Assembly: GCF_024807035.1 (NCBI RefSeq)
Contig: NZ_JANUCQ010000001.1
Span: 557,990-621,989 of the forward strand
DNA length: 64,000 bases
Direction of reading: 5' to 3'
Source of the DNA: Methanococcus voltae PS
GTDB taxonomy: Archaea > AGJL01 > Methanococci > Methanococcales > Methanococcaceae
Under the pieces are notes generated by a model. It had not been told where the DNA came from. It did no database searches and saw only the letters and a list, made by a program, of their open reading frames with translations. The position numbers were made by a program, and so were the translations under genes. This document shows, piece after piece, positions 9,339-12,928 of the stretch (its first letter is position 1; each line of letters starts with the position of its first letter).

Positions 9339-9576
9339 ATTATCGCCTTATTTATTTTTTTTTAATTTTTTATACAAATTGCTTTAATATCCTTTATTTC
9401 AGACAATTATTTATATTATTTTATATTATTTTATATTAGTTTATTTTATTATATTATATCTAATTTATAGTTACATAAATAAATTTATAATCAATTTTAT
9501 TATTCATATGCAATTTACGCAAAATACAAAAATTAAAAAATACAAAAATACACAAAAAAATTTACACGGTGAAATA

Positions 9577-9933
9577 GTGTTTACTAAAATATTTGCACTA
9601 GGTTTTATAGTACCTTTAATAGCCATAGTCGTAATTTTTATATTGGAAGTTATAAGCACATATATTGGTTTAAAACTTGCTAAAATAGAATCAGAGTTTA
9701 AAGAAATTTTAAAAGTTTCATTGTACAAAGCAATATTGACTACAGTTTTAAAATTGTTACCATTCGGTAGTATTATAGCATTACTCACATCGATATTTGT
9801 AAACAAGACTTATTTCAACACCGATTGGAATAAGGGTATATTAATCGAATTACCCTTGATAATTTTACAAATAATAATACTTATATTTGGCACTTTACTT
9901 GGAATACTTTGGTTATTTGCAAGTCTTACCTAA
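9577..9933 (+). CDS. Small membrane protein, copy 1 of a tandem paralogous trio
   Basis: A 118-residue hydrophobic protein with about three predicted membrane segments (near residues 10-32, 55-75 and 90-115). Blocks shared with the two following genes are IGLKLAKIES, EILKVSLYKA, LLPFGS, and a segment of the type NKTYFNTDWNKGILIELP between the last two membrane segments. I chose GTG 9577 because GGTG at 9569-9572 is well spaced; the longer reading from 9508 would translate the leader. The leader AAAAAAATTTACACGGTGAA recurs before copy 2. The family is not one I recognise; no transport or enzyme motif is visible. Confidence 0.75.
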   Translation: MFTKIFALGFIVPLIAIVVIFILEVISTYIGLKLAKIESEFKEILKVSLYKAILTTVLKLLPFGSIIALLTSIFVNKTYFNTDWNKGILIELPLIILQIIILIFGTLLGILWLFASLT

Positions 9934-10160
9934 TTTCTTTAAGTTATCGACATACTTAATTTAAATATGGAATTAAATTATAAATTTTTAAATTATATTT
10001 TTTAAAGTTATGTAAATGCAAATGGTTCGATAGTATCAATTATTAATATAACCATAATTAAAGTATAATTATAAAAATAATTAAAATAATTAAAAAATAA
10101 CTAAAAAATAACTAAAAATAAATTCATAAATTTACGAAAAAAATTTACACGGTGAACAAA

Positions 10161-10538
10161 ATGCCCTCAAATGCAATGTTAGGACTTGGATTTTTAGGAT
10201 TTGGAGTATTTGCAATTATAATTTTTGTTTTTATAGTCGGATTAATTTTAGAACTCATAAATACTTTTATTGGTTTAAAGATTGTTAAAATAGATTCTGA
10301 ATTCATCGAAATTTTAAAAGTCTCGTCATACAAGGCAGTAACTAACACAATATTGGGTTTACTTCCTTTTGGATTTATACTCGCTTTTGTCGTAGCGATT
10401 TATATAAACAAGACGTTCTTTGATACCGATTGGAAAAATGGGTTATTAATCGAATTACCATTATTAGTATTAGGATTGGTAATTGGATTATTTTTTATGC
10501 TAATGATGATATTTTCGTTTATCGCATTTGCATATTAA
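10161..10538 (+). CDS. Small membrane protein, copy 2 of a tandem paralogous trio
   Basis: 125 residues, with the same layout as copy 1: a Gly-rich hydrophobic first segment (LGLGFLGFGVFAIIIFVFI), the conserved loop IGLKIVKIDSEFIEILKVSS, LLPFG, the INKTFFDTDW block and a final membrane segment ending FIAFAY. ATG 10161 is supported by GGTG in the leader that is identical over 20 nt to the one before copy 1. The gap after copy 1 is 227 nt of AT-rich sequence, so each copy probably has its own promoter. Function unknown; paralogy is seen directly in the sequence. Confidence 0.78.
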   Translation: MPSNAMLGLGFLGFGVFAIIIFVFIVGLILELINTFIGLKIVKIDSEFIEILKVSSYKAVTNTILGLLPFGFILAFVVAIYINKTFFDTDWKNGLLIELPLLVLGLVIGLFFMLMMIFSFIAFAY

Positions 10539-10821
10539 AAATTTTACCCTATTACCTTGTATTTTTAGAAAAACTAGATATACTAATTTTTTTATGTGGT
10601 ATTATGAAAAAGTATATAATTTATGATACAATATATTATAAAATTGGTACATATTATATTTTTAGAAAACTTATTTACTAATTATTATTTATTGGGCAAT
10701 TGAATTTAATTTATTGACGCATATTTCAATATAAGTTTGATATACCGATATAATCAATATATCAGAATAAATATATCAGTATGATATAATATACATTATT
10801 ATATTGTTGTTTGGTGAAATT

Positions 10822-11205
10822 GTGAATACTTTTGAGATTATTGCAGGTCTTTCGGCAGTTTTTATAATCATTATATTTTTAATTGGTTTAATATTGCAGA
10901 TTGTACTTACATATTTGGGTGTAAAACTTGCTAAAATAGACACTAATTTAGCAAATATAACTAAAGTATCTCTTATTAAATACATTATTGGAATTATAAT
11001 CTCTTACGTTCCTTTGGGGATTTTTATTAGCTATATAGTTTCAGTATATATTAATAAGAGGTACTTCAATACAAGCTGGAAAAAAGGTTTAATTGTGGAA
11101 TTGCCATCTTTGATTTTGGGTGTTATAATAATAATTTTGGCAATAATCGCGTTAGTTTACAGCGGTCAAGACATTTATTCGGCAACTATGGAATTACTTT
11201 ATTAA
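10822..11205 (+). CDS. Small membrane protein, copy 3 of a tandem paralogous trio
   Basis: 127 residues with the trio's architecture: first membrane segment IIIFLIGLILQIVLTYLGV, cytoplasm-like loop VKLAKIDTNLANITKVSLIK, the INKRYFNTSWKKGLIVELP block, and a last membrane segment. It is the most divergent copy (PLGIF where the others have LPFG; INKRYF for INKTYF). GTG 10822 lies behind GGTG at 10813-10816; its leader is not the conserved one of copies 1 and 2. T-rich sequence after the stop (11217-11233) may terminate transcription. Function unknown. Confidence 0.75.
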   Translation: MNTFEIIAGLSAVFIIIIFLIGLILQIVLTYLGVKLAKIDTNLANITKVSLIKYIIGIIISYVPLGIFISYIVSVYINKRYFNTSWKKGLIVELPSLILGVIIIILAIIALVYSGQDIYSATMELLY

Positions 11206-11499
11206 ATTATTCTACTAATTTTCTACTTTTTTTAAGTATTAATCCAATTTTTTAATTCATGATTATATATATTAGTCTCCTTATTATTCTAATTAATAAA
11301 ATATATATACTATACAACCTATCTATAAACTGAATAAATTTACAAAAAATAAATAAATTTAGATTTACAAGTATATGGTAAACCATAAAATGAATTGAAT
11401 AGATTAAATAAATTAAATAAATTTAAACAGTTTTATGAACTTATATCCATTTGCAAATAGAATTAATTACAAAATAATATATAATTCAATATCGATATA
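11206..11499. other. AT-rich spacer after the membrane-protein trio
   Basis: Low-complexity A/T sequence with a T-rich tract near 11217-11233 (possible terminator for copy 3) and AAATAAATTTA-type repeats near 11340-11430. I see no gene here. From 11642 to 11950, after the structured island, the sequence is again plain AT-rich and should contain the radA promoter. Confidence 0.4.
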
Positions 11500-11641
11500 T
11501 GAGATTGGTATTACAATATCTGCCCAACTGCCTTTGAATAAATCCTGGGATTTATAGCTTGTCAACTACGTTGCCAATGGGCGAACGGCTGTAACAACTC
11601 TCTTCGAGAGTTTAAACCAATGAGATTTAGTATTACAATAT
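11500..11641 (+). ncRNA. Candidate structured RNA island flanked by direct repeats
   Basis: Within a 750-nt AT-rich gap, positions 11521-11610 are about 47% G+C by hand count. Hairpins visible on the + strand: an outer stem ATTGGT (11504-11509) with ACCAAT (11616-11621); GCCCA (11522-11526) with TGGGC (11578-11582); AAATC-CTGG-GATTT; TTG-T-CAAC-TAC-GTTG-C-CAA; and AACTCTC-TTC-GAGAGTT. A TATA-like element lies near 11476-11484, about 25 nt before the outer stem. Imperfect direct repeats (TGAGATT plus GTATTACAATAT) flank the fold at 11500-11519 and 11621-11641. I cannot match it to tRNA, 5S, SRP or RNase P RNA. Strand and function are inferred. Confidence 0.5.
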
Positions 11642-11959: not shown

Positions 11960-12928
11960 ATGAGTGATAATTTAACTGATTTGCCAGGAGTAGGTCCTTC
12001 AACCGCTGAAAAATTAGTAGAAGCTGGTTACATAGACTTTATGAAAATAGCTACTGCAACAGTAGGGGAGTTAACCGATATTGAAGGCATAAGTGAAAAA
12101 GCAGCCGCTAAAATGATTATGGGTGCAAGAGATTTATGTGATTTGGGTTTTAAAAGTGGTATTGACTTATTGAAACAAAGAAGTACAGTATGGAAGCTAT
12201 CAACAAGTAGCAGTGAATTAGACAGCGTATTGGGTGGCGGATTAGAAAGCCAGTCAGTAACTGAATTCGCAGGTGTTTTTGGTAGTGGTAAAACCCAGAT
12301 TATGCACCAAAGTTGTGTAAATTTACAAAACCCAGAATTTTTATTCTACGACGAAGAGGCAGTATCTAAAGGGGAAGTAGCACAACCAAAAGCTGTTTAC
12401 ATCGATACGGAAGGTACATTCAGACCTGAAAGAATTATGCAAATGGCAGAGCACGCAGGAATTGATGGTCAAACAGTTTTAGACAATACATTCGTTGCAA
12501 GAGCTTATAACTCAGATATGCAAATGTTATTCGCTGAAAAGATAGAAGACCTTATACAAGAAGGAAACAACATTAAATTAGTTGTAATTGACTCTTTAAC
12601 CAGTACTTTCAGAAATGAATACACTGGTAGAGGAAAATTAGCTGAGAGACAACAGAAATTAGGTAGGCACATGGCTACATTAAACAAGTTAGCAGACCTT
12701 TTTAACTGTGTTGTACTCGTTACAAACCAGGTTTCAGCAAAACCGGACGCATTCTTTGGTATGGCAGAACAAGCAATCGGTGGTCACATTGTAGGTCACG
12801 CAGCTACCTTCAGATTCTTTGTTAGAAAAGGAAAAGGCGACAAGAGAGTTGCTAAATTATACGACTCACCACACTTGCCAGATGCAGAGGCAATCTTTAG
12901 AATTACTGAAAAAGGTATTCAAGATTAA
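11960..12928 (+). CDS. radA: RadA recombinase
   Basis: RadA is the archaeal RecA/Rad51 homologue: an ATP-dependent filament on single-stranded DNA that carries out homology search and strand exchange. The 322-residue protein has the helix-hairpin-helix N-terminal domain ([17 protein letters not shown] and [13 protein letters not shown]), a linker, and the ATPase core with Walker A GVFGSGKT (residues 105-112), the EG motif [12 protein letters not shown], Walker B KLVVIDSL, and the L2-side segment [12 protein letters not shown]. Length and sequence match the M. voltae RadA known from crystal structures, which is the best species marker in the window. The start has GGTG 5 nt upstream. Confidence 0.99.

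Follow-up and report, generated by a model that had tools for sequence, protein, structure and literature searches.

A probable mobile palindromic element upstream of radA in Methanococcus voltae PS

Introduction

Double-hairpin elements of fungal mitochondria consist of two adjacent GC-rich hairpins that are dispersed in AT-rich DNA, and the mechanism of their mobility is unknown. In the archaeon Methanocaldococcus jannaschii, palindromic repetitive DNA elements were reportedly described by Suyama, Lathe and Bork in 2005 (FEBS Lett 579:5281). A 2007 review cites their work on these elements, which have coding potential, and describes archaeal palindromic repeats that are fused into protein genes (PMC2229807). 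Rickettsia palindromic elements (RPE) are dispersed palindromes of about 100-150 bp, which insert in frame into conserved genes that are unrelated to one another (PMC10969869, PMC2229807); whether RPE duplicate the target is listed as unknown in PMC2229807. The YPAL/RU-2 elements of Yersinia possess internal inverted repeats, are not AT-rich and have target duplications that range from 3 to 26 bp (PMC2229807). By what route such tiny palindromes, RPE among them, spread is a long-standing question.

Here, we describe an island upstream of radA in Methanococcus voltae PS, which is very probably a mobile palindromic element. All positions refer to the window, the whole stretch of 64,000 nucleotides that was analysed (contig NZ_JANUCQ010000001.1, positions 557,990 to 621,989).

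Results

The island (11500-11641) is located in an intergenic gap of about 750 nt between the end of a small membrane-protein ORF at 11205 and the start of radA at 11960, and about 350 nt separate its end from radA. The G+C content is 38.0% over 11500-11641 and reaches 45.2% in a core of about 93 nt (11521-11613), which is flanked by DNA of 15.3% and 16.9% G+C; the window mean is 29.7%, and the core ranks in the top 2% among 93-nt windows. The GC-rich island in an AT-rich gap and the three inner hairpins of the preliminary description are both borne out. Three similar small membrane-protein ORFs are arranged in tandem upstream of the island (9508-9933, 10152-10538 and 10804-11205).

All structural features are given for the plus strand. 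The first hairpin, hp1 (11538-11555, ATAAATC...GATTTAT), has 100% of its stem cells paired among 38 sequences, with changes on both sides in four of seven pairs, and for hp2 (11559-11577, TTGTCAAC...GTTGCCAA) the same sequences give 90.8% paired cells and double changes in all eight pairs. The third hairpin, hp3 (11596-11612, AACTCTCTTCGAGAGTT), is read from the sequence and lies within the variable right end of the radA copy. Together, hp1 and hp2 form the double-hairpin core TTRAA-[hp1]-AGCT-[hp2]-AT (11534-11578), which is matched by the covariance model R2 with 63.6 bits (E = 1.6e-13), a match by construction since the window sequence is one of the R2 seeds. The core is enclosed by a left arm (GCCCAACTGCC, 11522-11532), which forms the constant left end of the element and has the same left junction in the copies of four genomes (G000, the genome of the window, and G003, G005 and G006), and by a right arm (GGGCGAACGGC, 11579-11589), which pairs with the left arm and in two copies has A-U in place of C-G. 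GCCC of the left arm pairs with GGGC (S1) and GCC with GGC (S2, a possible pseudoknot); one compensatory pair in short forms of the element lends modest support to a putative H-type pseudoknot between the arms. With z = -0.07, the folding energy of the plus strand is ordinary (z = -1.96 for the minus strand), and the case for the structure therefore comes from covariation and not from energy. In agreement with the preliminary description, which had recognized no RNA family, Rfam contained no family at cut-off for the island or among the loci of its relatives, and neither known RNA families nor tRNA matched the island. On inspection of the sequence, an integron attC site was rejected because the second GTTRRRY half-site is missing at the right end, and an HDV-like ribozyme because its third helix would not fit into the short form.

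The sequence ATATATGAGATTGGTATTACAATATCT to the left of the element (11495-11521) recurs on its right (11616-11641, with the core ATGAGATTTAGTATTACAATAT at 11620-11641), both on the plus strand. These bracketing repeats of about 20-27 nt are near-identical, as previously noted, and differ by one mismatch and one indel. Their gapped alignment, ATGAGA-TTGGTATTACAATAT with ATGAGATTTAGTATTACAATAT, has a score of 32, which was reached by 39 of 20000 Markov pairs and by none of 1649 real AT-rich pairs from the window. The corresponding ungapped 20-mer test was not significant because the two copies differ by an indel. RadA of G000 is 98% identical to that of G005, and the identity to RadA of G006 is 94%. 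Within the corresponding gap upstream of radA, G006 has 118 nt in place of 253 nt in G000 and 249 nt in G005; the element is missing there, and the bracketing sequence is present as a single copy. The best alignment to G006, an AT-rich and gapped one, is obtained when the element and one repeat are excised (score 110-111), whereas the scores are lower when both repeats are kept (99) or both are removed (101). In G005, the two repeats that bracket the radA copy are ATATATGAGATTAGTATTCTAATATCT and ATATATGAGATTAATATTCTATATCT. G001 to G004 carry other sequence upstream of radA and gave no usable empty site. The empty site of G006 with its single bracketing sequence thus indicates that the repeats are a target-site duplication generated by insertion. 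Target duplication from the insertion of a small element was one of three readings offered in the preliminary description, and it is further backed by duplications of their own around other copies; a duplicated promoter sequence is no longer needed to explain the repeats, and they are not part of an RNA. The TATA-like box mentioned there does exist (about 11476-11484); however, it also occurs in the empty site of G006 and therefore belongs to the flank and not to the island. The insertion upstream of radA would date to an ancestor shared by G000 and G005 once the lineage of G006 had split off, and would have duplicated about 26-27 nt of the target, although G006 could have lost the element instead of never having carried one.

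A blastn search, which had been proposed earlier as a check for multiple copies, located the island in three places of its own genome, the two beyond radA having 82-84% identity. With the core as query, the other congeners gave eight matches, all of them in G005. Left-arm motifs number 17 in G005 and six in G006, and searching with the G005 form as well as the left arm GCCCAAYTGCC added copies in G003 and G006. The left junction is always GCCC and the right end differs from copy to copy, so that the boundaries of the element are soft. In a short form, both hairpins are missing and only three bases (TYT or TTA) separate the arms. Different forms are found at orthologous loci, namely upstream of a purC-like gene (G000, G005 and G006) and at the locus of L002 and L056. 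The duplication measures 26-28 nt at three sites, and its length varies elsewhere. In G003, the copy at an hsdS gene end has its own duplication of about 23-28 nt, and in G006, 26 of the 37 nt of a CRISPR repeat are duplicated around the element; the duplication amounts to about 93 nt in an hsdS gene at a contig end of G005, and to about 6 nt at a larC insertion and at tandem CRISPR copies. At two contig ends of G005 (L079 and L063), a unit of about 131 nt consisting of a short element and the hsdS 3' end is repeated in tandem, which probably broke the assembly.

The window copy is intergenic; of the 83 copies checked, however, eight are in-frame parts of ORFs that are 180 amino acids or longer. 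A larC-like gene of G022 contains an in-frame insert of 38 codons (114 nt); the other Methanocaldococcus genomes that were searched match the gene to either side of the insert and lack it. Further copies are located in mtnA and in a gene for a KBL/BioF-type enzyme, and G008 and G019 share one insertion site in a gene whose product is an iron-sulfur protein with a relationship to corrinoid activators. Related forms, which look recent, are present in the CRISPR arrays of G005 (contigs C2, C4 and C9; L013, L011 and L014) and G006 (C6; L051). They always directly follow the repeat end GATTGAAA, are often in tandem and are mostly found at the leader-distal end.

Two covariance models were used, R1 for the whole Methanococcus form and R2 for the double-hairpin module. 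Although R1 was built from Methanococcus copies only, it matched copies in other genera; these matches are weaker and share the double hairpin alone. R2 matched in 19 of the 36 Methanococcales genomes, with at least one to at least 44 copies each, counts that are lower bounds because no more than 150 candidates were scored per genome; a search at the level of the phylum comprised these 36 genomes as well. When 84,980 species were scanned with a pattern for one form of hp1, there was one good match (a Methanocaldococcus MAG) and 11 near-chance ones, and the family thus seems to be scarcely present outside Methanococcales. A viral origin was rejected, as scanning viral contigs for the pattern yielded no match or two weak ones. 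Four copies (L125, L126, L128 and L138) have a long conserved flank in common (AGACCATCAGAGG...CTGGAAGCTTCGCTTCCAC), which suggests a larger composite repeat in several genera; a Pab160 H/ACA RNA (Rfam RF02796) is found near one copy (L126:521-591). In G019 (L118 and L115), the element lies amid long runs of different hairpins with short conserved linkers.

In an alignment of 38 distinct sequences, 95.2% of the stem cells are paired compared with 75.4% after shuffling, 12 of the 15 stem pairs change on both sides, and none of 500 shuffles reaches the covariation score; the alignment is model-based, which favours pairing, and nine hand-chosen sequences agree. Compensatory changes, which the preliminary description had expected of a structured RNA, were found. 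In an RNA strand under selection, G-U pairs are expected more often than A-C pairs. The stems of the element comprise 1393 Watson-Crick, 10 G-U and 18 A-C pairs, while 13 tRNAs from the same loci comprise 141, 10 and 0, respectively; this comparison uses model-fitted alignments and a small tRNA control, which was filtered for well-paired tRNAs and whose G-U count is, if anything, lowered by the filter. The scarcity of G-U pairs, unlike in the tRNAs, suggests that the palindrome is maintained as DNA. The counts favour a DNA-kept palindrome in which, for example, one arm is copied from the other, and the compensatory changes speak for a conserved DNA palindrome no less than for an RNA.

Discussion

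The multiple copies, the filled and empty sites, the target duplication, the conserved double hairpin and the insertions in genes and CRISPR arrays argue for a mobile element. The island is likely a copy of a short, non-coding and non-autonomous palindromic element, the Methanococcus form of a wider family, and the copy at radA probably has no function of its own. Both copying and insertion of the element would take place at the DNA level, in a single-stranded state that exposes the hairpins; such a single-strand route is proposed tentatively. Host or trans-acting enzymes may make a widely staggered break for insertion, and the stems may stay perfect because one arm serves as the template for the other within the same strand. 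Movement in the manner of REP or IS200-IS605 was rejected, since a Y1_Tnp domain, found in five of the 36 genomes, is absent from G000, G003, G005 and G006, and duplications are present.

A functional structured non-coding RNA gene, or a riboswitch-like leader of radA, used by the cell would account for a GC-rich island in AT-rich DNA, for a double hairpin conserved with strong covariation, and for the copies that the radA and purC-like loci keep in G000 and G005. However, the copies are dispersed, polymorphic and missing at radA of G006, they are found inside genes and CRISPR arrays, and the island ends far upstream of radA. As the stems also lack the G-U pairs expected of an RNA and no Rfam family matched, the structured RNA of the preliminary description is weakened and now seems highly unlikely. 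The same copies might instead be miniature transposons (MITEs) that depend on a DDE transposase acting in trans and leaving a target duplication of unusual length. Some insertion sequence families make long target duplications, and a target-site duplication, near-constant at 26-28 nt at three independent sites, is indeed present; on the other hand, conserved terminal inverted repeats were not seen, the right ends differ among copies and the duplication length is not constant overall, which makes this origin unlikely.

A constant junction at one end, a variable other end and duplications of variable length are also what a SINE-like retroposon would leave, the RNA of which is copied by target-primed reverse transcription. 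An RVT_1 domain, however, was found in only one of the 36 genomes (G019) and in none of G000, G003, G005, G006 and G022, and the G-U sign of an RNA stage is missing, so that this route is very improbable. Insertion by the spacer integrase Cas1-Cas2, on and off target, would fit the 26-28 nt duplications and the insertions within CRISPR repeats. In addition, cas1 is enriched in carrier genomes (17 of 19 compared with 6 of 17 others; Fisher p = 0.0013), an association that is confounded by phylogeny and genome reduction. Against the integrase, just 26 of the 37 repeat bases are duplicated at the CRISPR site, which is shifted by one base from the repeat end and is distant from the leader, the duplication lengths vary, and the carriers G000 and G034 gave no cas1 match; we regard it as very unlikely. 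A broader proposal is that the element needs no known transposase or reverse transcriptase to spread and relies on a host integrase, for instance Cas1-Cas2, or on a break-repair enzyme with staggers of about 26-28 nt, CRISPR arrays being among its landing sites; this is improbable as well. A mobile palindromic element thus remains the preferred explanation of the island, and a caution follows from it: where an archaeal genome is AT-rich, a GC-rich island can consist of mobile DNA and need not be an RNA gene. The family offers filled and empty sites, a measurable duplication and recent-looking CRISPR copies, and since Methanococcus hosts are culturable and genetically tractable, gene deletions could be used to look for the enzyme.

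Compared by description, the double-hairpin elements of fungal mitochondria resemble the present family in their paired hairpins in AT-rich DNA and differ in being organellar. RPE are alike in behaviour: relatives of the radA copy are likewise inserted in frame in genes, whereas RPE possess terminal inverted repeats and a conserved peptide. YPAL/RU-2 shares internal inverted repeats, target duplications and filled and empty sites with the present element (PMC2229807), but differs in sequence, size (about 168 bp) and host. The elements of M. jannaschii are likewise palindromic, belong to the same order and, according to PMC2229807, are in some cases fused into protein genes. Double-hairpin copies are present in several genomes of the family of M. 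jannaschii, the sister of the Methanococcus family, and the two sets of elements, compared by description, therefore probably overlap. The family is thus probably known in part already. By the same comparison, the Methanococcus form is distinguished by its GCCC/GGGC arms and by short forms without the double hairpin; new are this form, its insertion documented by a filled and an empty site, the long duplication, the CRISPR insertions and the order-wide range.
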